A program made the translations under genes and the position numbers. A DNA stretch of 46,617 nucleotides from assembly GCF_000337515.1 (NCBI RefSeq), contig NZ_AOIQ01000003.1:1-46617 (forward strand), read 5' to 3'. Position 1 is the first letter of the stretch. Every line of letters begins with the position of its first letter. This document shows positions 1,310 through 40,664 of the stretch, piece by piece. The notes beneath the pieces were generated by a model. The model was not told the DNA's origin, did no database searches, and saw nothing but the letters and a program-made list of their open reading frames with translations. The stretch is from Halovivax asiaticus JCM 14624. GTDB lineage: Archaea > Halobacteriota > Halobacteria > Halobacteriales > Natrialbaceae.

Positions 1310-2374
1310 ATGACCGACGAAGCCGGCGGTGAGACGACTGCGGGTTCCGCCCTCGTCCTCGTCACGGACTCGTCAACAGTCGAGGAGACTGTGGAGTACG
1401 CCGCGCGAAAGGTCCGCGAACTGGCGGCCGAGACCGACAGTCGGCTCACGCTCACCATCGGAACGCCGGTCGTCGAGGACGTCCCACAGACCGAGACGCC
1501 GGATTTCGATGCCCTCCTCGAGACGGCGACCGACGTCGCCGAACGGGCGACGACGTTGACCGATCCCGAAGGGGCGGTCGACGTGGAAACCGAGCGAATC
1601 TATCGTTATCGGTACCCGTTCGATCCCTACGAGTACGCCGACGTGGTCCAGTCCTACGCGACCGAGCACGGCATCGATTCCGTCATCGTCGACCCATCCC
1701 ACGCGACGCCGGGAACCCGGCCGATGACTGGCTCGATCGCCGACCGACTCGCCGACCAGACCACTCTCGACGTCGACATCGCGCCGGTCGACCGTCAGAC
1801 TCGACCGGCATCCATCGTCACTCGAGGCGGTCTCGCCCAGTTTCTGTCCGTGTTCGGTATCTCACTCGGCTTCTACCTGCTCGTCGGTGGGTTCGCCGAC
1901 GTCACGTTCGATCTGGTGACCGGGACGATTGCTGCGCTCCTCGTCGCCGGAGTGCTGTCGCGGGTTACGTTCGAACGCACGCCGCGGCCGACACGAATGG
2001 TCTCGAGCGTGTTCAGGTGGCTGGTCTACGTGCCGTATCTCGGCTACAAGATACTAGTCGCCAACTTTCAGATCGCGTACGTGGTCTTGCATCCGTCGCT
2101 GCCGATCGATCCCTCCGTTGAGCGATTCGAACCGGGCGTCTGGGGCGGCCTCCCGATGGCGACACTGGCAAACAGCATCACTCTCACGCCGGGGACGCTG
2201 ACGGTCGACGTCGAGGATCGGGCGTTCGTCGTCCACTCGCTGACGGCGGGTGCGCGCGAGGATCTGTTGGATGGGGGCCTGGAACGAGCAGTCCGTTTCG
2301 TCTTCTACGGGCGGAGTGCGCTCCCGTATCCGTCGCCCCGTGACCGCGCCGAATCGGAGGGTGAGTCCTCGTGA
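1310..2374 (+). CDS. mnhE: Mrp/Mnh antiporter subunit E with N-terminal UspA-like domain
   Basis: First gene of the antiporter operon, 354 residues. Residues 1 to about 165 form a soluble alpha/beta domain resembling universal stress proteins (ALVLVTDSSTVEETVEYAAR, then a second half ending DVDIAPV). Residues from about 170 onward are the membrane MnhE domain, with hydrophobic segments (FLSVFGISLGFYLLVGG, GTIAALLVAGVL, YVPYLGYKILVANFQIAYVVL) and the family signature ANSITLTPGTLTVDVED. Bacterial MrpE is only about 160 residues, so this is a two-domain form. Subunit E is needed for antiporter assembly but its mechanism is unclear. The UspA resemblance is my reading of the fold pattern. Its stop overlaps the next start by 4 bp. 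Confidence 0.92.
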   Translation: MTDEAGGETTAGSALVLVTDSSTVEETVEYAARKVRELAAETDSRLTLTIGTPVVEDVPQTETPDFDALLETATDVAERATTLTDPEGAVDVETERIYRYRYPFDPYEYADVVQSYATEHGIDSVIVDPSHATPGTRPMTGSIADRLADQTTLDVDIAPVDRQTRPASIVTRGGLAQFLSVFGISLGFYLLVGGFADVTFDLVTGTIAALLVAGVLSRVTFERTPRPTRMVSSVFRWLVYVPYLGYKILVANFQIAYVVLHPSLPIDPSVERFEPGVWGGLPMATLANSITLTPGTLTVDVEDRAFVVHSLTAGAREDLLDGGLERAVRFVFYGRSALPYPSPRDRAESEGESS

Positions 2375-2652
2375 TCGAGGGGCCCGTCTCGACGATCCTG
2401 TTCGCCGGTGCGCTCGGGTTCGTCACGATCTCGATCGTCCTCCTCGGGCGGATACTCGTCGGGCCGACGATGCAAGATCGCGTCATCGCGCTCAACGTCG
2501 TCGGCTCGAACGTCGTGGTCGTCATCGCCTTACTGGCCGCAGCGATGGAGCTCCCTGCGTTTCTCGACGTCGCACTCGTCTACGCACTGTTGAACTTCCT
2601 CATGAGTATCGCGATTTCGAAGTTTACGGTCGAACAGGGAGGTGTCCTCTGA
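2371..2652 (+). CDS. mnhF: Mrp/Mnh antiporter subunit F
   Basis: A small membrane protein of 93 residues with three hydrophobic helices and the MrpF signature ILVGPTMQDRVIALNVVGSN. MrpF is an essential structural subunit of the multi-subunit Na+/H+ antiporter. The start is a GTG at 2371 overlapping the mnhE stop by 4 bp; this choice places the first helix at residues 6-28, as in the family. The stop shares its last base with the start of the next gene, so translation is probably coupled. Confidence 0.93.
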   Translation: MIEGPVSTILFAGALGFVTISIVLLGRILVGPTMQDRVIALNVVGSNVVVVIALLAAAMELPAFLDVALVYALLNFLMSIAISKFTVEQGGVL

Positions 2653-2960
2653 TGGTGATTCAGGGGGTCATCGCGGTCCTGGTCGTTGGTGGCCTCTTCT
2701 TCGCGTTCGTCTCGGCGGTCGGGCTCTACCGACTACCGGACCTCTACACCCGGGCACACGCGGCTTCGAAGAGCGATACACTGGGTTCGATCCTGTCGCT
2801 TTCGGCGGTCGCACTCGCGTTCGGTGCCGACGTAGCCACGATCAAGGTTGTCATGCTGGTCGTGTTCATGCTGATCACGTCGCCCACCGCCGCCCACGCC
2901 ATCGCCCGTGCGGCCCACGAGCAAGGAATCGAACCATGGACGCGGGGTGACGATCGATGA
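2652..2960 (+). CDS. mnhG: Mrp/Mnh antiporter subunit G
   Basis: Encodes 102 residues with three hydrophobic helices and the MrpG hallmark VGLYRLPDLYTRAHAASKSDTLG, followed by KVVMLVVFMLITSPTAAHAIARAA. The ATG at 2652 overlaps the mnhF stop (TGATG) and gives the expected family length. A longer in-frame reading upstream lies entirely over mnhE/mnhF and is not credible. MrpG is a structural membrane subunit of the antiporter. Confidence 0.93.
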   Translation: MVIQGVIAVLVVGGLFFAFVSAVGLYRLPDLYTRAHAASKSDTLGSILSLSAVALAFGADVATIKVVMLVVFMLITSPTAAHAIARAAHEQGIEPWTRGDDR

Positions 2961-3496
2961 TAACGCTCCTCGAGGCTGGCTTGCTCGTCTTCATCGTCCT
3001 CTCGGCGCTGATGACGGCCATCCTTCGAGACGTGCTCGCGGCGATCATCGTCTTCGGTGCGTACAGCCTCGGAATGGCCGTCCTCTGGATCGTCCTTCGC
3101 GCTCCCGACGTCGGCTTGACGGAAGCCGCGGTCGGTGCCGGCATCATGACGGTGCTGTTGCTCGTCTCGATCGCACGGACGACCCGACTGACCGGGATCG
3201 AACTCAGACCGGTCGAGATCAACTGGGGAGTTGCCGCCCTCTGTGGCCTATTCGTGCTCGCGATCCTCGCCACGGTTCCCGCACTCCCCGATATGGGCCA
3301 AACGGTGGGGAATCCCGTCTTTGGCGAGATATACAACCACTACGTCACCATGGCCTACGAACAGACCCACGTCGAGAACGTCGTGACGGCGATCCTCGTC
3401 GCCTATCGTGGCTTCGACACGCTCGGCGAGGCAACGGTCGTCTTTACCGCCGGCGTCGCCGTGCTCACCGTCCTCAGACGGGAGGTGGACGCATGA
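2957..3496 (+). CDS. DUF4040 antiporter subunit (equivalent to MrpA C-terminal part)
   Basis: Encodes 179 residues with about five hydrophobic helices. The first half (VFIVLSALMTAILRDVLAAI, YSLGMAVLWIVLRAPDVGLTEAAVGAGI) is the DUF4040 signature seen in the C-terminal half of large bacterial MrpA and in hydrogenase-type complexes. In canonical Mrp systems this domain is fused to MrpA; here it is a separate gene between subunits G and B. In related complexes the corresponding segment resembles NuoJ and shapes the ion path. It overlaps both neighbours by 4 bp. Confidence 0.88.
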   Translation: MITLLEAGLLVFIVLSALMTAILRDVLAAIIVFGAYSLGMAVLWIVLRAPDVGLTEAAVGAGIMTVLLLVSIARTTRLTGIELRPVEINWGVAALCGLFVLAILATVPALPDMGQTVGNPVFGEIYNHYVTMAYEQTHVENVVTAILVAYRGFDTLGEATVVFTAGVAVLTVLRREVDA

Positions 3497-4200
3497 GCGA
3501 CGGCCGCACCTACGTCGAGAGTCCGATCATCATGGCGACGGTCAGACTCGTCGCGCCGTTCGTCCTGACCTACGGGCTGTTCATCACGCTTCACGGCGCC
3601 AGTTCTCCTGGCGGTGGCTTCCAGGGTGGCGTCATCGTCGCCTCCGTGATCGTCATGCTCTCGTTCGCGTATGGGATCGATCCCACGTGGGAGTGGCTCG
3701 ACAAACGCGTGCTCGTCGGGATTACGAGCGGCGGGATCGCCGTCTTCGCCGCGCTGGCACTCGGGCCCATTCTCCTCGGAACGGGGGGTGACTTCCTGGA
3801 ACTCGGCTCCTATCCGGTGATTCCCAACCCCTGGAAGTACGGCATCGAACTCGTCGAGGTCGGAATCGCGATGACCGTCGCCGGCGTCGTCATCGTGCTG
3901 TTCTTCCAGCTGGCCCGCGGTGCGATGCCACCGGGTGGCTCTCCGTACGCGAAGCCGTCAGCACAGCGGGTCCCCAGCCGCAGTCGTGGCGAAGCGGCAC
4001 AGCCCGGCACCGAATCAGCGGATCAATCCGGTGACGAAACAGCGGACCAGACCGGGCACGAGGTGTCCGACGAACCCGTGGATCGAACCGATACGCCGAC
4101 CGACGCCGACTCGTCCGCGACGGACTCGGGTCGCTCGACACCAGTCGACGACGGATCGGATCGCCCGTCACCGGCTGACGAGGGAGATGATCGACGATGA
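3493..4200 (+). CDS. mnhB: Mrp/Mnh antiporter subunit B with acidic C-terminal tail
   Basis: Encodes 235 residues. Residues 1 to about 150 form the MnhB membrane domain, with the signature LFITLHGASSPGGGFQGGV and four helices. Residues from about 160 to 235 are a hydrophilic tail rich in Asp, Glu, Ser, Thr and Gln that bacterial MrpB (about 140 residues) lacks. The ATG at 3493 overlaps the previous stop; a longer upstream reading in the same frame overlaps mnhG and the DUF4040 gene and is rejected. The core is a structural antiporter subunit. The tail looks disordered and probably faces the cytoplasm; its purpose is unknown. Confidence 0.92.
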   Translation: MSDGRTYVESPIIMATVRLVAPFVLTYGLFITLHGASSPGGGFQGGVIVASVIVMLSFAYGIDPTWEWLDKRVLVGITSGGIAVFAALALGPILLGTGGDFLELGSYPVIPNPWKYGIELVEVGIAMTVAGVVIVLFFQLARGAMPPGGSPYAKPSAQRVPSRSRGEAAQPGTESADQSGDETADQTGHEVSDEPVDRTDTPTDADSSATDSGRSTPVDDGSDRPSPADEGDDRR

Positions 4201-4556
4201 TGGAGCTACTCACGACCCACTACAACTACGTCGTCTTCGCGGTACTGCTCGGGATCGGCCTGTACATGATCATCGACGACGAGAATCTGGTGAAGAAAGT
4301 GATCGGTCTCAACGTCTTCCAGACGGGTATCTTCCTGTTCTTCATCACGATCTCCGTCCGCGATGGGGGCCTCCCGGCGGTCGGAAAGGGGTCGGAATCG
4401 GCGTACGTCAACCCGCTTCCACACGTGCTCATCCTCACCGCCATCGTGGTGGGGGTGAGCCTGACAGCACTCGCACTCGCGCTCGTCGTCCGCATTCACG
4501 AAGAATACGGCTCGATTCGTGAAGACGTCGTCGTGGAGGTGTTAGAAGATGAGTGA
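4197..4556 (+). CDS. mnhC: Mrp/Mnh antiporter subunit C (NuoK-like)
   Basis: Encodes 119 residues with three transmembrane helices and the NuoK/MrpC signature YMIIDDENLVKKVIGLNVFQTGIFLFFI, plus PHVLILTAIVVGVSLTALALALVVRI. NuoK-type subunits carry conserved membrane acidic residues in the proton path of complex I and Mrp antiporters. Two adjacent ATGs (4197 and 4200) are possible starts; the first overlaps the mnhB stop by 4 bp. It overlaps the next gene by 8 bp. Confidence 0.94.
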   Translation: MMELLTTHYNYVVFAVLLGIGLYMIIDDENLVKKVIGLNVFQTGIFLFFITISVRDGGLPAVGKGSESAYVNPLPHVLILTAIVVGVSLTALALALVVRIHEEYGSIREDVVVEVLEDE

Positions 4557-6153
4557 CCTCACACTCCTCCCGATCTTGCTCGTGGTCGTCCCGCTCGTCA
4601 CCGCGGCCTTCCTGCTTGCAGTCGGGCGTTTCGTCGGTGGTGCAGGACGGGTACTCGCACTGGTTGCCACGCTCGCGAACACGGCGATCGCGTTCGTCCT
4701 CGCCGGGGAAACGCTCGGCCAGGACGGCCGCCCGATCCGGACGGAGATCGCCGGTTTCCCGGCCGCGGAGGGTGGTATCGAACTCTTCGTCGACGGCATC
4801 TCGGCCGTCGTCCTCGGCTTGATCGCCCTCGTCAGTCTTGGCGTGCTCGTCGCTAGCTTCGACCGTCGCCGGCAGGACAGCTTCTACGCCCTGTACGTGC
4901 TGTTGATGGCCGGGCTGTCCGGCATGGTGGTGACCAACGACCTGTTCAACCTCTACGTCTTCCTCGAGATCAGCGGGCTGGCCACGTACGCGCTGATCGC
5001 CAGCGACGGGTCCGGCCGATCCGCGCTGGCGTCACTCAAGTACCTCCTCGTCGGGACGGTCGGGGCTTCGCTGTACTTGCTCGGGGTCGGCTACGCCTTC
5101 GTTGCGACGGGCTACCTCAATATGGTCCAGCTCGAGGGGGCGTTCGCGGAGATCGGGCATCAAGAGCCACTGGTGCAGACGGCCTTCGCGCTGATCGCGG
5201 CCGGCCTCGTGATCAAGATCGCGCTATTTCCGGTGCACACCTGGCAGCCCGACGCCTACACGGAGGCGCCCGACCGGGTCACGGCGCTCGTCGCCGCGCT
5301 CGTCTCGACGACGGCCGCCTACGCGCTCGTCCGGATCTCGCTCGGTGTGTTCACGCCGGCCTTTTTCGAGGCGAACTCGTTGATCCACACCCTCCTGCTT
5401 GCCCTGGCCGGGGCGAGCGTCGTCGCCGGGAGTGTCCTCGCCGTGATGCAACGCGAGGTCAAACGGATGCTCGCGTACTCTTCCGTCGCCCAGTTTGGCC
5501 TCGTCGTCCTCGGGATCTACCTGCTGAACGGGACGGCGCTCACGGGAACCGTGATCCACCTGCTTGGACACGCGATCATCAAGGTAGGTCTGTTCCTCGG
5601 CGTCGCCGCGTTCGCCACGGCCTACGGCGTTCGGACCGTTTCAGAGTACGACGGTCTCGCCGAGCGAGCGCCGTACGCCAGTGCGGCCGTCGCCGTCCTC
5701 GCACTGGCGCTCGTCGGCATGCCGCCCACGGTCGGATTCGTCGGTAAGTTCTACATCGCCATCGGCGCGTTCGAGGCCGGAGCGTGGGCACTGCTGGCGA
5801 TTATCGTCGCCAGTACCGTGCTCACGCTGGGGTACGTGATGCGCCTGCTCGAACGGATGTACTTCGCCGATCCGCCCGACAGCTCACCAGTTTCGCCGCC
5901 TGCAGCCGACCTATCGACCGACGGCGGGGACCCAACCGATGAATCGGCGACCGACGGGGACCACACTGTCGACGAGCCTTCGAACGATGGGCCTTCGAAT
6001 GACGTGTCGCGGACGGATACCGCGGCGGCCGGGCGAATCTCCCGGCCACTGCTCGCGGTCGTGATCGTCGCGGCGCTCGCGACGCTCGCCCTTGGCGTGC
6101 TCGGTAGCACGATCGAGGGGGCGCTCGCCGCCACCGTGGAGGTGCTCGTCTAA
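4549..6153 (+). CDS. mnhD: Mrp/Mnh antiporter large subunit D, first copy
   Basis: Encodes 534 residues of the proton-conducting antiporter family (NuoL/M/N, MrpA/D) with about 14 membrane helices. Expected channel residues are visible: Glu in NLYVFLEISGLATYAL and Lys in VIKIALFPVHTWQPDAYTEAP. KRMLAYSSVAQFG is the conserved loop after the lysine helices. Between about residues 441 and 498, before the last helix, there is a hydrophilic insertion full of Asp, Ser and Thr that ordinary MrpD proteins lack. It is the first of three consecutive large subunits and probably supplies one of the Na+/H+ channels. It shares one base with the next gene. Confidence 0.93.
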   Translation: MSDLTLLPILLVVVPLVTAAFLLAVGRFVGGAGRVLALVATLANTAIAFVLAGETLGQDGRPIRTEIAGFPAAEGGIELFVDGISAVVLGLIALVSLGVLVASFDRRRQDSFYALYVLLMAGLSGMVVTNDLFNLYVFLEISGLATYALIASDGSGRSALASLKYLLVGTVGASLYLLGVGYAFVATGYLNMVQLEGAFAEIGHQEPLVQTAFALIAAGLVIKIALFPVHTWQPDAYTEAPDRVTALVAALVSTTAAYALVRISLGVFTPAFFEANSLIHTLLLALAGASVVAGSVLAVMQREVKRMLAYSSVAQFGLVVLGIYLLNGTALTGTVIHLLGHAIIKVGLFLGVAAFATAYGVRTVSEYDGLAERAPYASAAVAVLALALVGMPPTVGFVGKFYIAIGAFEAGAWALLAIIVASTVLTLGYVMRLLERMYFADPPDSSPVSPPAADLSTDGGDPTDESATDGDHTVDEPSNDGPSNDVSRTDTAAAGRISRPLLAVVIVAALATLALGVLGSTIEGALAATVEVLV

Positions 6154-7925
6154 TGCCGGTCGACTCGATTCTGCCGCTGCTCGCGGTGGCGATCCCGGCG
6201 ATCGCGATTCCGTTGATCCTCGCGCTCGGCCGCCGACCGAACGTTCGCGAGGGCGTCACGCTGACCGCTGCCTTCGCCACGTTCGCGACGGTGGCCAGTA
6301 TGGTCCCCGACGTGCTCGATGGTGCGGTCTACGAGACCGATCTCGGGACCTTCCTCTCGACGGGACTCGGTGACCCGATCGGGTTCACGCTCCAGGCGGA
6401 CCGCCTGGGCGTCCTGTTCGCCTTGCTCGCATCCTTCCTCTGGATCGCGACGAGTTTCTACTCGATCGGCTACATGCGGGGGCTCGACGAGCACGATCAG
6501 ACGCGATTCTTCGCGGCGTTCGCGGCGAGTATCGCGTCGGCGATGGGCGTCGCGTTCGGGGCGAACCTCGTCACGCTGTTCGTCTTCTACGAAGTGCTCT
6601 CGATCGCGACGTACCCGCTCGTGGCCCACGACGAGTCCGAGGAGGCGATCTGGGCCGGCCGGAAGTACCTGCTCTACACACTTGGTGGCGGCGTGGCCGT
6701 ACTGGCCGGCACCGTGATGGTGTACGCCATGACGGGAACGACGACGTTCCAGGCCGGCGGCATCGCTGCCCTCACCGAAGATCCGATGATGGCACGTGCC
6801 GCGTTCGCCCTGCTCGTGGGCGGGTTCGGCGTCAAGGCCGCGCTGATGCCGTTTCACTCGTGGCTGCCGGACGCGATGGTCGCACCGACGCCCGTCTCGG
6901 CGCTGTTGCACGCGGTCGCGGTCGTCAAGAGCGGGGTGTTCGGGATCGCCCGGGTCGTTCTGGAAGTCTACGGCCCCGGCGCTGTCCAGGACCTCGGCGT
7001 CGGAATCGCGCTCGCCACGGTCGCTGCCATCACACTCGTCACGGCCAGTATCATCGCGTTGAAACAGGACAACCTGAAGCGTCGGCTCGCCTACTCGACC
7101 GTGTCACAGCTGTCGTACATCGTCCTCGGGCTCGGGCTCGCGAGCCCGGCCGCACTCGTGGGGGCGCTGTTGCACATCCCCGCCCACGCGTTCATGAAGA
7201 TCACCCTGTTCTTCTGTGCCGGAGCGATCCACGTCGAGACACACACCGACGACATCAGTGACATGGCCGGTATCGGTAAGCGGATGCCGTTGACGATGTC
7301 GGCGTTCGCGGTCGCGGCGGCCGGGATGGCGGGAATGCCCTTGCTCGCCGGGTTCGTGAGTAAGTGGTACCTGCTCGTCGGTGCAGTCGAGCTCGACCTG
7401 GCGATCTTCGCCGTCGTCCTGCTCGTCTCGGGCGTGCTCAACGTTGCCTACTACTGGCCGATCGTCTACCAGGCGTTCTTCGAAGACGAACACCACCCGG
7501 ACCCAAAACCGCTCCTCGAGTTCCCGCCCGGTGGACTCGCGAGTTCCGATACGGGCGTCGAAGCAAACTCGCCACGGACCAATGGAGGTCGACACCTGGC
7601 CACCACGGCAGAACCCACCGGGGCCGCTGTCGACGCTGATGCTGACGGGCCCGATTCGGTTCGATCCGACGGCGACGGGGACCACGAGGAATCGGTCACC
7701 GACACCGACGTGACCGATGACCACGTGTCGTCCCACGGTGGGGGCCATACGGCGGATTCGGGCTGGGAGCGCCGGAGCTGGCGCACCGAGAGCACCTGGT
7801 TCATGCTCGGGCCGATCGTGCTCGCGGCCGTCGGTGCGGTCGTCCTCGGGCTCGTTCCGGGCCACGTGGTCTTCCTGGAGCTCATCGAACACATCGTCGA
7901 CGTTGCGACGGAGGTGACGCACTGA
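6153..7925 (+). CDS. Mrp/Mnh antiporter large subunit D, second copy
   Basis: Encodes 590 residues of the same proton-conducting family. LFVFYEVLSIATYPLVAHDE holds the conserved Glu, and FGVKAALMPFHSWLPDAMVA with VSALLHAVAVVKSG holds the channel lysines. It resembles MrpA N-terminal and NuoL/M types more than the first copy does. A hydrophilic acidic stretch at about residues 438-544 separates the last transmembrane helix from the rest, in the same relative place as the insertion in the preceding gene. The start shares one base with the previous stop, and its stop shares one base with the next start. Exact paralogue assignment (MrpA-like or MrpD-like) cannot be settled by eye. Confidence 0.9.
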   Translation: MPVDSILPLLAVAIPAIAIPLILALGRRPNVREGVTLTAAFATFATVASMVPDVLDGAVYETDLGTFLSTGLGDPIGFTLQADRLGVLFALLASFLWIATSFYSIGYMRGLDEHDQTRFFAAFAASIASAMGVAFGANLVTLFVFYEVLSIATYPLVAHDESEEAIWAGRKYLLYTLGGGVAVLAGTVMVYAMTGTTTFQAGGIAALTEDPMMARAAFALLVGGFGVKAALMPFHSWLPDAMVAPTPVSALLHAVAVVKSGVFGIARVVLEVYGPGAVQDLGVGIALATVAAITLVTASIIALKQDNLKRRLAYSTVSQLSYIVLGLGLASPAALVGALLHIPAHAFMKITLFFCAGAIHVETHTDDISDMAGIGKRMPLTMSAFAVAAAGMAGMPLLAGFVSKWYLLVGAVELDLAIFAVVLLVSGVLNVAYYWPIVYQAFFEDEHHPDPKPLLEFPPGGLASSDTGVEANSPRTNGGRHLATTAEPTGAAVDADADGPDSVRSDGDGDHEESVTDTDVTDDHVSSHGGGHTADSGWERRSWRTESTWFMLGPIVLAAVGAVVLGLVPGHVVFLELIEHIVDVATEVTH

Positions 7926-9715
7926 TGGCACTCGAACCGTACGTCGTTCCGCCAGTATTGCTCGTCCTGTTCGCACTGCTCGCCTACGTGGTGCGACCGA
8001 GACTGATCCACCCCGCAGGGCTCGTCGTGACCGCGGGCGCACTCGCGTACGCCGCACTCGTCCCCGCCGACTACGAGCTTTCGGGCACCCTCTTCGGCAG
8101 CGGAACGTTCGGATTCGCCGGGTTCGACGTCGTGTTCGTCTCCGTCGATCCGTTCAGCCGATTGATGGGCCTGATCTTTGCCTTCATCGGCTTCGTCGCC
8201 GTGCTCTACTCCTGGTCGACCGACGCCCCGCCGACCCAGACGGCGTATGCGTTGGCGTACGTCGCCTCCAGTCTGGGGGCGGTCTTCGCCGGCGACTGGC
8301 TCCTCCTGTTGTTCTTCTGGGAGGTGATGGCCATTACGTCGACGCTGCTCGTCTGGCACCACGGCGGCGCCGCGGTCAGGGCCGGCTTCCGGTACGCCGT
8401 CTGGCACGGCATCGGTGGCAGCCTGTTGATGGCCGCCGTCATCTGGCACTATCAGAGCCCCGGCGTTGGAACGTTCGTCATGACCGGTGACGGTATCGCG
8501 ACCGGCATCCCACAGGTGCTGGCTGCCCTCGGCATCGGGATCAACGTCGCGTTCGTCGGTTTCCACGCGTGGCTTCCCGACACCTACCCGCGCCCGCACA
8601 TCGCCGCGAGCGTCTTCCTCTGTGTCTACACGACCAAGACCGGCGTCTATGCGCTCTTTCGGGCGTTTCCCGAGGGGAACCTCGCCATCGCCTACATGGG
8701 CGGGGCGATGGCCGTCTTCGGCGCCACGTTCGCACTCCTGCAGAGCGATATGCGCCGACTCCTCTCCTATCACATCCAGTCGCAGGTCGGCTACATGGTC
8801 GCCGGCGTCGGGATCGGATCCGCGCTCGCGACCGCCGGCGCCTTCGGGCACGTCTTCAACCACATCCTCTACAAGGCGCTGCTGTTCATGACCGTCGGCG
8901 TGGTCATCTACCGGACCGGTGCGGAGAGTCTCGACAAGATTCACGGCATGCGGCGGGCGATGCCGATTACGTTCCTCGCCTTTACGATCGCCGCGCTCTC
9001 GATCGCCGGCTTCCCCGGCTTCAACGGTTTCGTGAGCAAGGGGATGGTGCTCTACGAGGCTCATCACTATCCCGAGTACGAGGCGCTGTGGTATCTCCTC
9101 CTGCTCGGCGGCGTCGGGACGTTCATGTCGTTCATCAAACTCGGCTACTACGTGTTCTTCTACGGGGAGCAGACCCACGACGTCGAACGCGCCTCGGCCG
9201 GCCAGTCGATCGCTATGCTCTCCGTCGCGGCGCTGTGTGTCTTCTACGGCGTCTATCCGGACGCCCTCGTCTCTATCTTGCCGCGTGCGAGCGCAGCAGC
9301 TCACTATCACGTCTTCGATAGCTTCCAGGTCCTGGAATCCTTCGTCCTGGCGGCGACGGGCCTCTTCGGGTTCGTACTGGTGAAGGGGCCGCTCAGCCGT
9401 GTCGGTCGCATCCCGGACATCGACCTCGCGTACAACCCGCTCTCGGTCGGGCTCGGTCGTGGCTCGCTCCGGGCGGTCAACCGAGCTATCGGGACGCTTG
9501 ACCGAGCGTCGACGAGTGCTGCGCTGGGGACGATTTCACTGGGTTCGGTTGCCACGAGTGGATCGTCCACCGAGACCGACCATGGGCACCGAGATCAGCC
9601 CACCCTCGTCGAACGGGGTCTCACGACGGCGTTCGCTCGACGGGCCGGAATTGGGGCCGCCGTAATTCTCGTCCTGCTGGCGACGACGCTGCTACTCGCG
9701 CTCGGGTTCGTGTAA
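7925..9715 (+). CDS. Mrp/Mnh antiporter large subunit D, third copy
   Basis: Encodes 596 residues of the proton-conducting antiporter family. The conserved Glu lies in LLLFFWEVMAITSTLLVWHH, the lysine-helix region reads GFHAWLPDTYPRPHIAAS and TTKTGVYALFRAFPEG, and the loop MRRLLSYHIQSQVGYM follows. About 14 helices are predicted. A moderately hydrophilic segment (about 510-570) precedes a last C-terminal helix ending LALGFV. It closes the nine-gene operon. Three large subunits instead of the canonical two (MrpA, MrpD) suggest either an extra ion channel or a replacement for the MrpA N-terminal half. Confidence 0.9.
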   Translation: MALEPYVVPPVLLVLFALLAYVVRPRLIHPAGLVVTAGALAYAALVPADYELSGTLFGSGTFGFAGFDVVFVSVDPFSRLMGLIFAFIGFVAVLYSWSTDAPPTQTAYALAYVASSLGAVFAGDWLLLLFFWEVMAITSTLLVWHHGGAAVRAGFRYAVWHGIGGSLLMAAVIWHYQSPGVGTFVMTGDGIATGIPQVLAALGIGINVAFVGFHAWLPDTYPRPHIAASVFLCVYTTKTGVYALFRAFPEGNLAIAYMGGAMAVFGATFALLQSDMRRLLSYHIQSQVGYMVAGVGIGSALATAGAFGHVFNHILYKALLFMTVGVVIYRTGAESLDKIHGMRRAMPITFLAFTIAALSIAGFPGFNGFVSKGMVLYEAHHYPEYEALWYLLLLGGVGTFMSFIKLGYYVFFYGEQTHDVERASAGQSIAMLSVAALCVFYGVYPDALVSILPRASAAAHYHVFDSFQVLESFVLAATGLFGFVLVKGPLSRVGRIPDIDLAYNPLSVGLGRGSLRAVNRAIGTLDRASTSAALGTISLGSVATSGSSTETDHGHRDQPTLVERGLTTAFARRAGIGAAVILVLLATTLLLALGFV

Positions 9716-10081
9716 GAATCGACCCGCCGAATTTCTCGACCGCTTAGTGGAGTATCGACGTCGAACAGTTCGTAACGACACCCGTACACCGAGAATCCCG
9801 TTTCTGCGTGCTGCATCGGGTGGTCCGAGCGGGGATACGCTCGTCCGAAGAGCCGATTTTATGGTAGTAACACGCCAGGCCGAGATATTCTAGAGTGCCG
9901 ATCGATGTCACTCAATTCCGGCGTAGTGTTACTGAACGGTTACGAGGATACGTCGCCCATAGCGGCGTAAATGCGACGAATAACAATTGGCGCCACCACG
10001 GAAGCCGCAATTGGATGAACGAGACCGGACGTGGGGCGGCCGAACCCGAACGACCGACCGGTGTGGACGCGAGGGTCTGAG
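9716..10081. other. Intergenic region before glycosyltransferase
   Basis: The 366-bp spacer holds a TATA-like GATTTTATGG at about 9853-9862 and a short 8-bp inverted repeat (AGTAACAC / GTGTTACT, near 9863 and 9924). An open frame from a GTG at 9895 to 10080 could encode 61 residues ending just before the glycosyltransferase, but its composition is not convincing. I see no RNA or mobile element. A promoter with a long leader, or a small leader gene, is possible. Confidence 0.35.
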
Positions 10082-11338
10082 ATGTATCGCGACCACAGTG
10101 TCGCCGTCGTGGTTCCGGCGTACAACGAGGCAGGGTTCGTCGGCGACGTACTGATGTCGATGCCGGAGTACGTCGACCGGGTCTACGCGGTCGACGACTG
10201 TTCGACCGACGGGACGTGGGCGGAAATCTGCCGATTCGCAACGTGTGACCCGATCGACGACGCAACTGAACTCGTGTCGGACCGGGTCGATACGAGCGAA
10301 GACGATCACGCGACGTCACCGACACCATCGCCCCGGTCAGACGGCGGGGATCGAACTGGCGTTGCACCCTCCGCTGCTTCTGGTTCGAGGAACGTCAGCA
10401 GAGATGTGACAGGCCGGTCACGAGGTTCGGAGTCTGACGTTTCGACCCAGCGACCGACTGCAGGGCCGACGATCGTACCGATCCGTCACGAGGAAAATCG
10501 CGGCGTCGGGGCGGCGATCACGACCGGGTATCGGTGTGCACGGAGGGAGGGCATCGACGCCACCGCCGTGATGGCCGGCGATGGACAGATGGACCCCGAT
10601 CAGCTCCCACGACTCATAGATCCTATCGTCGAGGGACGGGCGGCGTACGCGAAGGGGAATCGACTGCGCGGGCGGGCACAGTACGATTCGATGTCGACGT
10701 TTCGATTCGGCGGGAACGTCTTACTCTCGCTGTTGACCAAAATCGCGAGCGGCTACTGGGGAATGGTCGATCCACAGAACGGTTATACCGCGATTGCCGG
10801 TGAGGCTCTGGAGGCGATCGACCTCGACTCGCTGTACACGGAGTACGGCTTCGCGAACGACTTGCTCGTCGTGCTGAACGCCGAGGGATTCGCGATCGCC
10901 GACGTGGCGATGCCGGCCGTCTACGGCGACGAACGCAGCCACATTAGTTACCGGACGTTCGTCCCGCGATTGTCGTGGTTGCTCTGGCGCCGGTTCCTAC
11001 ACAGACTCGGGATACGGTACGTCATGCAGGACTTCCACCCGCTCGTCGCCCTCTACGCGCTGGGGATCGGTGGCCTCGCCGTTGGGATCGGGACACTCGT
11101 TTCGAACCGTTTCGACAGGCGATCCACCAGTCCGTCGGACCGAGCCTCCAATTCAGGATCGCCGACGAAAGACGGTGACGACGGACACACGGCTGCGGAT
11201 CCCGAAACCAGTCACGAGACGCGTTCGATCCGGTGGTGGCTCGCAGGGGTGTGGACGCTGTGTTCGGCCATCGCCCTCTGTCTCGCGATGGCGTTCGACC
11301 ACGACGCGAACGAGGGGTCGGTGGTGGTCGAAGAATGA
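10082..11338 (+). CDS. GT2-family membrane glycosyltransferase
   Basis: Encodes 418 residues. The GT-A fold of family 2 is clear: VAVVVPAYNEAGFVGDVL at 7-24, DDCSTDGT at 38-45, and VMAGDGQMDPDQL as the metal-binding DxD-like region, as in dolichol-phosphate mannosyl/glucosyl transferases and haloarchaeal lipid-linked sugar enzymes. About residues 55-130 are an inserted low-complexity segment rich in Ser, Asp and Arg that splits the catalytic domain. Two hydrophobic helices lie near the C-terminus (HPLVALYALGIGGLAVGIG and WLAGVWTLCSAIALCLAMAF), so it is membrane-anchored. The ATG at 10082 is preferred because the motif starts right after it. The stop overlaps the next gene by 4 bp. The donor sugar is unknown. 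Confidence 0.85.
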   Translation: MYRDHSVAVVVPAYNEAGFVGDVLMSMPEYVDRVYAVDDCSTDGTWAEICRFATCDPIDDATELVSDRVDTSEDDHATSPTPSPRSDGGDRTGVAPSAASGSRNVSRDVTGRSRGSESDVSTQRPTAGPTIVPIRHEENRGVGAAITTGYRCARREGIDATAVMAGDGQMDPDQLPRLIDPIVEGRAAYAKGNRLRGRAQYDSMSTFRFGGNVLLSLLTKIASGYWGMVDPQNGYTAIAGEALEAIDLDSLYTEYGFANDLLVVLNAEGFAIADVAMPAVYGDERSHISYRTFVPRLSWLLWRRFLHRLGIRYVMQDFHPLVALYALGIGGLAVGIGTLVSNRFDRRSTSPSDRASNSGSPTKDGDDGHTAADPETSHETRSIRWWLAGVWTLCSAIALCLAMAFDHDANEGSVVVEE

Positions 11339-12423
11339 AGATCGTCGTGACGATCCAGCATCCGGCGCACGTCCACTTCTACCGACACGCCGTCAAGGAA
11401 CTCGACGAGCAGGGTCACGACGTCTTCGTGTACGCCCGCGAGAACGATCTCGCCGTCCCGCTGTTGGAGGCCTACGGTATCGAACACGAAGTCCTCGCAG
11501 GGCCCCAGCGCTCTCTCGCGTCGCTCGCACGGGTGCAGGCGATCTACGAGTGGCGGCTGCTCACCCGGGCGCGTCGGATCGACCCGGACGTGATGACCTC
11601 GATCGGTGGCGTCGCCGTCTCGCACGTGGCGCCCCTGGTCGACGCTCGTAGTGTGGTGTTCGTCGATAACGAGGGCGTCTGGTCACATCGACTGATGGCC
11701 TCGTTCGCGGACGTGATCGCCACGCCGGCGTCGTTCGAGGACGACTTCGGAGAGGGGCACGTTAGATACCGGGGGTTTCAGGAACTCGCGTATCTCCATC
11801 CGAACCGGTTCGAACCCGATCCGGACCGCCTCCGTGCGGCGGGCGTCGACCCGTCCGATCGGTACTTTTTTTGCCGGTTCCGGACGTGGGACGCGTTTCA
11901 CGACGTCGGCCAAGGGGGACTCTCACCGGCCGGAAAGCGAGAGCTCGTCTCACGCTTCGACGATCGCGGGACCGTCTACATCTCCAGTTCGGACCCCCTA
12001 CCTCCGGATCTGGAACCGTATCGACAGCCGATCCCGCCGACGGCCGTCCACGATTTGCTCTACTACGCCGACTGTTACGCCGGCGATTCGGCGACGATGG
12101 CGACCGAAGCCGCCCTCCTCGGGACGCCGGCGGTGCGAATTCAGTCGTTCGCGACCGACTTCGACGCGGACATGAGTAACTTCGTCGTCCTCGAGACCGA
12201 GTACGATCTCCTCCGCTCGACGGCGGACGAATCGGTCGCGCTTGCGCTCGCCGACGAGCTGAGTGCGGATCCGAAAACGCCGGCCCGGTGGAAACGACGA
12301 CGCGACGCGGTGGTCGACGACTTGCAGGATGGAACGACCCTGATCGTCGACTTGCTCACCCGGGAAGCTCGAGCGCGACCGTCACAAACTGCCGACGCCG
12401 CTTATCCCTCGTCGTCGCGGTGA
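11335..12423 (+). CDS. DUF354 family protein (GT-B-like)
   Basis: Encodes 362 residues beginning MKIVVTIQHPAHVHFYRHAV, the usual N-terminus of DUF354 proteins. These resemble UDP-GlcNAc 2-epimerases and GT-B glycosyltransferases (glycine-poor first loop with HPAHVHF; later CYAGDSATMATEAALLGTPAVR, the sugar-nucleotide binding part). The ATG overlaps the glycosyltransferase stop by 4 bp, so the two are co-transcribed and likely act in the same glycan pathway. The 3' end overlaps the convergent integrase gene by 22 bp. Function is inferred from fold resemblance only. Confidence 0.8.
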   Translation: MKIVVTIQHPAHVHFYRHAVKELDEQGHDVFVYARENDLAVPLLEAYGIEHEVLAGPQRSLASLARVQAIYEWRLLTRARRIDPDVMTSIGGVAVSHVAPLVDARSVVFVDNEGVWSHRLMASFADVIATPASFEDDFGEGHVRYRGFQELAYLHPNRFEPDPDRLRAAGVDPSDRYFFCRFRTWDAFHDVGQGGLSPAGKRELVSRFDDRGTVYISSSDPLPPDLEPYRQPIPPTAVHDLLYYADCYAGDSATMATEAALLGTPAVRIQSFATDFDADMSNFVVLETEYDLLRSTADESVALALADELSADPKTPARWKRRRDAVVDDLQDGTTLIVDLLTREARARPSQTADAAYPSSSR

Positions 12424-13523
12424 GCGTCCGGGTCGGCGTCGTGGGGTGTGCTGGGATCGTCGGGACCCTGATCCGCTGACTCGTCGACGGCGACGAGCGA
12501 TTCTTCGAGCGCCCGGGTTCGAATCCCACCCTGGGGCCCCGTCGCGGCCGTTCGTTCGCCGCGATCGTCGTGGGCCCGTCTCGCATCACCCGGCGTGAGG
12601 TAGTCGCCGTCGACGGCGACCTCGACGCGCTGACTCAGGCGCTTGAGGATGGTCCGTGCCCCTTCGGTGGTGATCGCCGGGGGACTGATTCCGTACTCGC
12701 GAGCCAGGTCGCTCGCGGTCGCCGACTCGAACGCGGCGTCGATCTCGTCGGCGTCGAAGCCGCGATCGGCGAGCCCCGCTCTGACAGTCGCGGCGATGGA
12801 GGGTGCGTGGCGGGTTGGGAACAGCGGCCAGTCGGTCGTCGGCGGTTCGAGTGCGACGCGATACCGCCGAAGCGGGGTCCTGGCACCGGCTGGTAGTGAG
12901 ACGTCTTCTAGCTCCTGTGACGTCCCGAGGACTCTGATGGTTCCTGCGTAGAAGTCCACATCGTCCCACGTCGCACCGTCGCGTCGGTCGTCCTCCGGGA
13001 CTCGAAAGAGTTCTCCGCCACGCAGCCCGGCGTGAGCTAACAGTGCGATCATCGCGTACTCACGTAACCGATTCAGTCGTTCGGTCGAGCCGTCGGGTGC
13101 CTCGTTGGCCAGCCGTCGTACCTCGGCCTCGAGTTCGTACGTGGCGCGTTTGACCGATCGGCCACCTGCTTCGGACTCGACTGGTGTGGGGAGCGCTGCA
13201 GTGGCCCGACTCGCTTCCGCGGGATTCGCCGACAGGATCGATTCCTCGACACACCAGGAGAGGAAGGCTCTGACGACGGCGAAGTATGTTCGTGCCGTCG
13301 ATGCCGCGTACTCGTCCCGAGCCGTCCGCCGCGAGAGGTATCTGGCGTATGCTTCGAGGTGAGCACGCTCCAGGTCAGCGAACGCCTCTACGTCGTATTC
13401 CGCCTCGAGCCACTCCGTCCACCGGGTGAGGATCGACGACGCGTTCGATGCGTACGTTCCAGCCCCCTCGCCGACGGATTTGCGATCGAGGTAGCGGTCG
13501 ACACCGGCCGTGATCGGGATCAT
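12402..13523 (-). CDS. Tyrosine recombinase-like protein lacking catalytic residues
   Basis: Encodes 373 residues. The N-terminal SAM-like core-binding domain spans about 5-110 (TRWTEWLEAEYDVEAFAD; TARTYFAVVRAFLSWCVEE). The catalytic-like domain spans about 125-350. The first catalytic arginine is kept in LLAHAGLRGGEL (Arg168). In the second box a haloarchaeal integrase would read PHxARR; here it is PGDARR (311-316), so the histidine is gone. The usual LRH motif is represented by IRTR (334-337), and no tyrosine follows where the nucleophile should be (ALEESLVAVDESA). An acidic tail ends the protein. It is probably a DNA-binding protein or a decaying integrase. Alignment of the last 60 residues is by eye. 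Confidence 0.75.
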   Translation of the reverse strand: MIPITAGVDRYLDRKSVGEGAGTYASNASSILTRWTEWLEAEYDVEAFADLERAHLEAYARYLSRRTARDEYAASTARTYFAVVRAFLSWCVEESILSANPAEASRATAALPTPVESEAGGRSVKRATYELEAEVRRLANEAPDGSTERLNRLREYAMIALLAHAGLRGGELFRVPEDDRRDGATWDDVDFYAGTIRVLGTSQELEDVSLPAGARTPLRRYRVALEPPTTDWPLFPTRHAPSIAATVRAGLADRGFDADEIDAAFESATASDLAREYGISPPAITTEGARTILKRLSQRVEVAVDGDYLTPGDARRAHDDRGERTAATGPQGGIRTRALEESLVAVDESADQGPDDPSTPHDADPDAHRDDEG

Positions 13524-13676
13524 CGCATGGGCACTCCACTGACTGTTTCGATCCGCTCGTGGCTCCGTCGTCGCCGGTTGCTCACGTCCGATGCATCCAT
13601 TGTTCGAAACTCCGTGTCCGCATCCGTAAATCTGACTCCTGGATCGACGATTCTTCGGTCCCTCACTGGGTCCGGA

Positions 13677-15125
13677 CTAATCGTCACTGGTTGTGCCGCC
13701 AGGACGGTAGCTCCGACTGATGGCGCGCCAGCGGCCGGTCCCGAACCGGTAGTAGTTGACGACGGCCGGGACGGCCGTCTCGGCGACGAACGCGAGGTAG
13801 AGCCCCCAGATCCCGAGCGACGTCGTGGCACCGATGTACGCGAGGGGAATCGCCCCGCCGAACATACCGAGCAACTGGGCGTAGAACGGCCAGCGTGTGT
13901 CGCCCGCAGCGTTCAACGCGCCCTCGGCGGAGCCGACGATGCCGCGGAAGAGGATCGCGACACAGGCTGCGTACACGAGGGAGATGGCGATCGGGACGAC
14001 CTGCGAGCCGGGTTCGTCGACGAACCCCTGAACGATCGGCTCGGCGAAGACGAACACGATCGTCGCCGACACGGCGTAGACGGCGACGGAATACCGGATG
14101 ATCTCGTTCCCGTACTCGGCTGCGGTATCCTCTGCACCGGTCCCGAGTTCCTGTCCGACGAGACTGGAGGCGGCGAGGCTGAATCCCCAGCCTGGCGTGT
14201 TCATCAGCCCCCAGATCCGTCGCGTGATGACGAACGCCGACGCGGTGTCAGTGCCGAAGATGTCGACGATCCCGAGTAGCGGGAGTTCGGCGACGGTCCA
14301 GACCATGTTCCGGAGGAAGACCGGCGTCCCGATCGAGACGAGCGATCGGATGATCTCTGGATTGACGTACGAACCGAACGGATCGATCGTGACGACCATG
14401 TCGGGGACGCCGGGGAACGAACCGCGGATGAGGAGCGTCGCGAAGCCGGCCGAGACGACGACGTTGGCCAGCACGGTCCCGAGGGCCGCCCCGGCCACCC
14501 CGAGGTCGGCGACGAAGATGAAGGCCGCACTGAAGCCGATGTTGGCGATGGCGCCGCCCGCTCTGATGATCATCGGTGTCCAGGCGTCGTCCATGCCGAC
14601 GAACGTGCGGCTTCCGATCAGATTGAGTCCGGCGAACGGGACGCCGAACGCCACGACCGAGAGGTAGGACGCCCCCAGCGACAGGGGCTCGGGTTTCGTC
14701 GTGATGATCGAGACGAGCTCGGTCGAAAACACGACGAAGAAAGCGGTTACCGGGAGGCTGATGAGCAGGACGAGCAAGATGGACGAGCGTATCGCCTCTC
14801 CGAGTTCGTCGAACTGTTCGGCGCCGTACCGCTGAGAGACGAGCGCGATAGTCCCGCCAGCGACACCACCACCGATGGTGAATGCCAGTCCCCAGAACGG
14901 CGTCGCGAACCCGACGCCGGCGATTGCCGCTTCACCCACTGCGATGCCGACCATCGCGACGTCGACCGCGCTCTTCGACATTCGCGCCAGTCCGGTCACG
15001 ATGCGCGGCCAGGCGAGATCGGCCGTCCGAACCGCACGCTCACGGTCGATCAGCCCCAGCCGAGCGAGGCCGAGACCGATCCACAGGATCGTGAGCCGCA
15101 TCGGGTTCGGAAGCCACGACAGCAC
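13677..15125 (-). CDS. MATE family efflux transporter
   Basis: Encodes 482 residues with about 12 membrane helices in two repeats. MATE features include DLAWPRIVTGLARMSKSAVDVAMVGIAVGEAAIAGVGFATPFW near the N-terminus, ALVSQRYGAEQFDELGEAIRSS, and in the second half GTDTASAFVITRRIWGLMNTPGWGFSLAASSLVGQELG. MATE proteins export organic cations or drugs using H+ or Na+ gradients. The start used is a GTG at 15125; an in-frame ATG at 15101 would remove eight residues. It is separated from the integrase by about 150 bp. The substrate is unknown. Confidence 0.9.
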   Translation of the reverse strand: MLSWLPNPMRLTILWIGLGLARLGLIDRERAVRTADLAWPRIVTGLARMSKSAVDVAMVGIAVGEAAIAGVGFATPFWGLAFTIGGGVAGGTIALVSQRYGAEQFDELGEAIRSSILLVLLISLPVTAFFVVFSTELVSIITTKPEPLSLGASYLSVVAFGVPFAGLNLIGSRTFVGMDDAWTPMIIRAGGAIANIGFSAAFIFVADLGVAGAALGTVLANVVVSAGFATLLIRGSFPGVPDMVVTIDPFGSYVNPEIIRSLVSIGTPVFLRNMVWTVAELPLLGIVDIFGTDTASAFVITRRIWGLMNTPGWGFSLAASSLVGQELGTGAEDTAAEYGNEIIRYSVAVYAVSATIVFVFAEPIVQGFVDEPGSQVVPIAISLVYAACVAILFRGIVGSAEGALNAAGDTRWPFYAQLLGMFGGAIPLAYIGATTSLGIWGLYLAFVAETAVPAVVNYYRFGTGRWRAISRSYRPGGTTSDD

Positions 15126-40590: not shown

Positions 40591-40664
40591 AGCCAGGGGT
40601 GGGATTTGAACCCACGAAGTCTCGATTACAAGTCGAGTGCATGAACCGCCCATGCTCCCCTGGC
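40591..40664 (-). tRNA. tRNA-Thr (UGU anticodon)
   Basis: A 74-nt cloverleaf including the discriminator: acceptor GCCAGGG/CCCTGGC, D-stem GCAT/ATGC, anticodon stem CTCGA/TCGAG with loop CTTGTAA (anticodon TGT), T-stem GTGGG/CCCAC with loop TTCAAAT. No intron and no encoded CCA. The discriminator is U, as expected of archaeal threonine tRNAs. Positions 8, 14 and 21 are G, G and C instead of the usual U, A and A. Confidence 0.95.

Follow-up and report, generated by a model that had tools for sequence, protein, structure and literature searches.

Gene T and its locus

The window is a stretch of 46,617 nucleotides from Halovivax asiaticus JCM 14624 (contig NZ_AOIQ01000003.1, positions 1 to 46,617). 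The gene under study, herein named T, lies on the reverse strand and converges on an Mrp-type antiporter operon. The features of the locus are as follows, with residue numbers referring to the T protein.

1310–9715 (+): operon for an Mrp-type Na+/H+ antiporter, a conserved convergent neighbor outside T itself
10031–12423 (+): glycosyltransferase family 2 and DUF354 genes, located between Mrp and T in nine mapped genera
12402–13523 (−): gene T, a catalytically dead tyrosine recombinase of 373 aa
12489–12524 (−): rebuilt tail motif IRxxxxEESLVAV, residues 334–345, at the place of the relatives' LRH (alignment)
12579–12581 (−): Arg II codon, R315, in PGDARR; Arg in 102/114 rows
12588–12590 (−): box-II His position, Gly 312 in the window protein (alignment)
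12579–13187 (−): catalytic-domain body as far as Arg II, approximately residues 113–315, with conserved scaffold (alignments and pooled dN/dS)
12921–12923 (−): β-hairpin Lys position, Thr 201 in the window protein (alignment)
13020–13022 (−): Arg I codon, R168; kept in 114/114 rows
13188–13523 (−): core-binding (SAM-like) half, residues about 1–112, with approximate limits (PF13102 and kept scaffold columns)
13520–13600 (−): upstream ORF (26 codons and a stop), with a TGA that overlaps the ATG of T
13627–13632 (−): TATA-like GATTTA; its TTTA starts 30 nt ahead of the ATG of the upstream ORF

T starts with ATG. Its 3′ end and that of the DUF354 ORF (11233–12423, +) share 22 bases in a tail-to-tail overlap. 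PHROGs assigns the protein as an integrase. The Pfam catalytic-domain match is weak and sub-threshold (residues 134–202), and the NCBIfam models XerC and XerA_Arch match residues 32–226, far under their curated cut-offs. A stronger PF00589 protein (C6) is encoded elsewhere in the same genome.

An earlier note on this DNA had read T as a tyrosine recombinase that had lost its catalytic histidine and tyrosine, and this reading stands. The first arginine (R168, within LLAHAGLRGGEL) and the RR of PGDARR (R315) remain, as described. The histidine of the second box is a glycine (G312), compared with His in 19/19 related integrases; the LRH motif has become IRTR (334–337); and the translation contains no Tyr past R315. 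The 373-aa ORF is intact and free of frameshifts, and the core-binding domain, which the note had called full-length, is matched by Pfam PF13102 (SAM-like core-binding) at residues 46–103, above the cut-off. The β-hairpin Lys, replaced by T201, is a further loss in addition to the residues named there. Of the residues that mark an active recombinase, window T thus lacks the β-hairpin Lys, the box-II His, the LRH His, and the nucleophilic Tyr. It has the SAM-like and the homologous catalytic domain together with Arg I and Arg II, and, judged by these, T belongs by descent to the tyrosine recombinase superfamily.

Distribution and catalytic state in Natrialbaceae

Some match to T at 1e-10 occurs in 124 of the 125 Natrialbaceae genomes. 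The T set itself comprises a single match per genome, with an E value no higher than 2e-98 and 50–97% identity to the window copy; a second, sporadic set has E values of 1e-70 or worse. Full-length T is found in 113/125 genomes of the family (window counted), representing 26 of 29 genera, and is missing in 12. It is absent from all six g2 genomes and both g7 genomes, as well as from G120, which is 99% complete, and from the less complete G020 (83%) and G034 (77%). The T of G035, with 240 aa, is broken at a contig end; it enters the 114-row tally and stands outside the 113-row counts. Among 391 genomes drawn from across the class, none outside the family gave a match better than 4e-77.

All 113 orthologs are open (358–445 aa). 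Over the 114 rows, Arg I is invariant. The β-hairpin position holds Lys in 81 rows, Arg in 22, Thr in 10, and Ser in one, the Lys being lost in 33. At the box-II position, His occurs in only three rows, next to Arg (96), Ser (9), Gly (4), and Val (2). An xRH stretch is present in one of the 113 orthologs and a Tyr motif of the SY..I type in two. The latter (G101 and G106) read TYSPI and are devoid of the box-II His, and the other species of their genus do not have that Tyr; the motif in these two orthologs is best taken as chance. Because the loss of the box-II His, the LRH His, and the Tyr is common to nearly all 113 orthologs, the alignment indicates that it is due neither to chance nor to local decay.

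PHGARR is kept in three rows (G007, G008, and G085), and the box-II His survives in g3 and g18. In the ortholog tree, these three rows branch off at the first fork (support 88–89), and an order in which LRH and Tyr were lost first and the box-II His later would therefore fit. The orthologs form a graded series, with the box-II His in g3 and g18 only and with Lys and Arg II eroding in places, and are a natural record of how an integrase may become a noncutting host protein.

Past residue 310, the positions kept in at least 85% are P311, R315, R324, A327, L334, R335, E340, and V345. Position 340 is Glu or Asp in 113/113 orthologs. Conserved Ser, Thr, Tyr, Cys, or His residues were not found in this part of the 113 orthologs.

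Comparison with related integrases

The comparison set consists of 19 haloarchaeal integrases picked among matches of 37–46% identity; wherever 18 relatives are given, G360/L104 is omitted for its short start. Arg I, Lys, the box-II HxxR, and the SY..I Tyr are present in 19/19 and LRH in 17/19. Profile A2 was built from ten of these integrases (the L102 row is without a start codon) and profile A3 from 25 T orthologs. When A2 is aligned with XerD (1a0p), the His, LRH, and Tyr of the relatives come into register with PH..RH, LGH, and IYTH, with the second piece being weak. A3 and A2 align over 350 columns with a probability of 100 (hhalign), and the similarity fades only over the last 35–40 positions. 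Neither this profile–profile alignment nor the alignment with the 19 relatives places any Tyr of window T at the catalytic position, in agreement with the earlier note.

Among scaffold columns nearly fixed in 18 relatives, 38 of 48 are kept in T before residue 311 and one of 10 after it. A search of the PDB with A3 gave a weak match only, around Arg I and Lys, and one with a single T protein returned nothing relevant. A structure prediction for T based on three sequences reached a mean pLDDT of only 36.7; hence, the fold assigned to T is read from its sequence.

The related integrases, many of which are plasmid-borne, resemble T in their two-domain layout and in their equal length up to box II. 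Unlike T, they are scattered in their distribution, 15 of 18 are without a coupled upstream ORF, and they keep their active-site residues. The chromosome-dimer recombinases XerA, XerC, and XerD are, like T, single-copy and vertically kept, whereas T has no active site. Tyrosine recombinases that hosts reportedly kept despite lost catalytic residues include a XerD-like protein of streptococci and host genes derived from Cryptons. These are bacterial or eukaryotic and of independent origin, and their likeness to T is one of description.

Selection on T

Between the window copy and its 97% relative G032, 12 nonsynonymous and 36 synonymous differences are found (ω 0.11). Values of ω lie below 0.5 in 52/52 independent ortholog pairs, with each genome used once. 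These rates indicate that purifying selection acts on T. Pooled dN/dS amounts to 0.28 for residues 1–110, 0.22 for 111–310, 0.36 for 311–345, and 0.70 beyond, so the body of the catalytic domain is the most constrained part. Five pairs of related integrases display the opposite profile, with 0.15 before residue 311 and 0.07 after it. Constraint has therefore left the active-site end of T and stays on the body. Together with the alignments, the profile indicates that T has kept its scaffold as far as residue 310 and that the active-site tail is rebuilt around LRxxxxE.

The earlier note had suggested that the gene may be retained for DNA binding rather than decaying, and that conservation of the dead form at low dN/dS would support a repurposed role. 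Intact full-length ORFs at a syntenic place in 113/125 family genomes now provide this support: the dead form is conserved, the locus is conserved, and dN/dS is low, and thus retention of T is established by comparison. The DNA-binding half of the suggestion is an inference, based on the scaffold columns kept before residue 311.

Neighborhood and descent

T and the Mrp operon are convergent in 36 of 40 scored loci (26 genera), with the 3′ end of the operon facing T. The interval between the two is either empty or holds one glycosyltransferase and one DUF354 gene. The four exceptions are L073, where the operon lies on the opposite side, L065 and L071, where none is seen near T, and L087, which ends short of Mrp. 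L075, at which the ORF picker missed T, is outside the scored loci. Since T persists at the exceptional loci, its function seems to be independent of Mrp. A tblastn search of 20 Mrp loci, taken from other families and from family members without T, detected no T relative (best E value 0.025), and scans of viral contigs and phage records likewise yielded no relative. G120 is a clean loss of T: the glycosyltransferase and DUF354 genes are present, and T is gone. As this genome is 99% complete and its locus otherwise present, T is not essential everywhere.

In a tree of 53 of the 113 orthologs and 18 related integrases, the T orthologs form one clade with a support of 100. Most genera with at least two rows form single groups; g9 and g11 are exceptions, and the tree does not resolve g23 and g28. 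A tree of Mrp was considered as a species proxy and not used for dating the gain of T, as related subunits are mixed in it and f9 rows fall among T-bearing rows. The T-less G120 also falls among T-bearing genomes in this tree.

Upstream ORF and expression

In many genera, the promoter of T reads CGAAACAC.GATTTA (GATTTA in the window), followed by an ATG about 32 nt on (30 in the window). This ATG opens a short ORF. When alternative in-frame T starts within five codons are allowed, 100 of the 113 genomes, from 25 of the 26 genera, have an ATG-started ORF that terminates in the T start, and 92 of the 100 show a TTTA-like box 22–36 nt ahead of the upstream ATG. The stop overlaps the T start as ATGA or GTGA, and the ORF spans 11–84 codons. 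Such an arrangement is found in three of 18 related integrases, in 116 of 474 neighboring genes of at least 120 aa, where true operon overlaps are counted, and at 242 of 7994 random ATG/GTG sites, scored without alternative starts. The encoded peptides are mostly Arg-rich and unconserved; their length varies freely while the frame and the stop–start overlap are kept.

The upstream ORF is a candidate for an expression device in its own right and is probably leaderless. For Haloferax volcanii, the accessible text of one study states that overlapping gene pairs are strictly coupled and that a Shine–Dalgarno motif does not support de novo initiation (PMC6728339). Because of the overlap of the upstream stop with the T start and this coupling in Haloferax volcanii, T is probably translated through termination–reinitiation from the upstream ORF.

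Proposed function of T

T is probably a domesticated recombinase that clamps DNA without cutting it and serves as a regulatory or architectural protein. The comparisons show that one haloarchaeal integrase gene was fixed next to the Mrp operon in an ancestor shared by most Natrialbaceae. This gene lost the catalytic His/Tyr set and has since been inherited mostly vertically, as a single copy under purifying selection. Like its relatives, the protein may fold as a two-domain clamp, and it may hold a specific DNA site while being incompetent for cleavage; the rebuilt tail LRxxxxE would no longer serve to cut strands but to aid folding or contacts with proteins. T could work as a DNA-binding protein of low level, with a regulatory or architectural role, and its translation would depend on termination–reinitiation from the short, probably leaderless upstream ORF. 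A more specific version is tentative: a family-wide single-copy pseudo-recombinase, in which the acidic motif LRxxxx[ED] replaces the active site, might clamp one dedicated genomic site as a structural or regulatory factor, at a dose set by the coupled upstream ORF.

T might instead act as a dominant-negative guard that occupies att sites or joins mixed tetramers of active integrases and, thus, blocks integration or excision. Integrases of 37–46% identity are indeed carried by plasmids and by many genomes that also have T, and lost catalysis on a kept scaffold would suit a poison subunit. This explanation is nevertheless unlikely, given that PADLOC has no match for T and that the gene is kept in the window's genome without a second member of the 37–46% set, though four PF00589 matches lie elsewhere in it. 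A single, slow-changing, vertical copy would also be unlike fast-evolving defense genes.

Still less likely is a role in maintaining, resolving, or segregating the Mrp-bearing block, which is a separate replicon of 160–240 kb in several genera. T is present in twelve plasmid records, of which ten are 161–241 kb in length and the other two 402 and 987 kb. In many other genera, however, T resides on contigs of at least 3 Mb and is therefore not tied to an autonomous replicon. On two of the T-Mrp replicons, pHTUR04 (L182, NC_013747.1) and a Natrononativus plasmid (L183, NZ_CP101460.1), there are also genes for ribonucleotide reductase and dihydroorotate dehydrogenase, which would favor the maintenance role; because of these genes, the two look like chromids split from or joined to the chromosome. 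The available part of a published description gives pHTUR04 three orc/cdc6-type origins (PMC3528665).

That T is a decaying remnant of an integrated element is very improbable: the tail past residue 345, with a pooled dN/dS of 0.70, is under almost no constraint and G120 has lost the gene, but every full-length ORF is open, ω is uniformly low across the pairs, the promoter is conserved, and the upstream ORF is coupled. Least credible of all is residual catalysis through another nucleophile or a partner's Tyr in trans, for which Arg I and most Arg II are in place, since no candidate nucleophile is conserved past residue 310, the losses of Lys in many rows and of the box-II His in nearly all remove the pocket required for trans cleavage, and a Tyr mutant of archaeal XerA was inactive and not rescued in trans, according to the accessible part of PMC3646895.

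For the domesticated, noncutting recombinase, the near family-wide retention of intact T in one neighborhood suggests recruitment to a new job. Public records name T "recombinase XerD" or "site-specific integrase"; hence, what is likely a regulatory or architectural gene of the host is classed among mobile-element genes. The graded series of orthologs offers a means of testing whether dead recombinases serve archaea as DNA-site proteins. The open-access literature, which is without most subscription journals, yielded no published description of T. The accessible part of a review of archaeal tyrosine recombinases sets out integrase, XerA, and TopoIB groups and leaves a conserved inactive haloarchaeal member unmentioned (PMC8371274), and in that of PMC5991714 the term "inactive tyrosine recombinase" denotes a state of a protomer.

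Short sequence elements at the locus

Opposite the tail of T, 12515–12530 (+) carries GGGTTCGAATCCCACC, a perfect look-alike of a tRNA T-arm, where the T strand encodes GGIRT. The sole tRNA found in the window is a tRNA-Thr (40591–40664, −). A split integrase of the SSV type, truncated at an att site, was rejected: a genome-wide search for an att copy at a tRNA 3′ end gave no second exact copy of the 16-mer, and relatives lacking it align through the tail. A DNA search with 12480–12600 gave short, weak matches only. The look-alike seems to be a coincidence.

Inverted repeats in 12300–13900 amount to two short palindromes within the neighboring gene. An operator in the T promoter was likewise rejected, as its candidate, CGAAACACNGATTTA, lies away from T in most genomes of the window's own genus and some control promoters are equally conserved. 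Of the 125 genomes, 70 have a single CGAAACACNGATTTA, which by coordinates lies beside T in 63 of them. In four of five genomes of the window's genus, it is located elsewhere than at T, in one of them just ahead of a small protein that we take to resemble an RNase P subunit.
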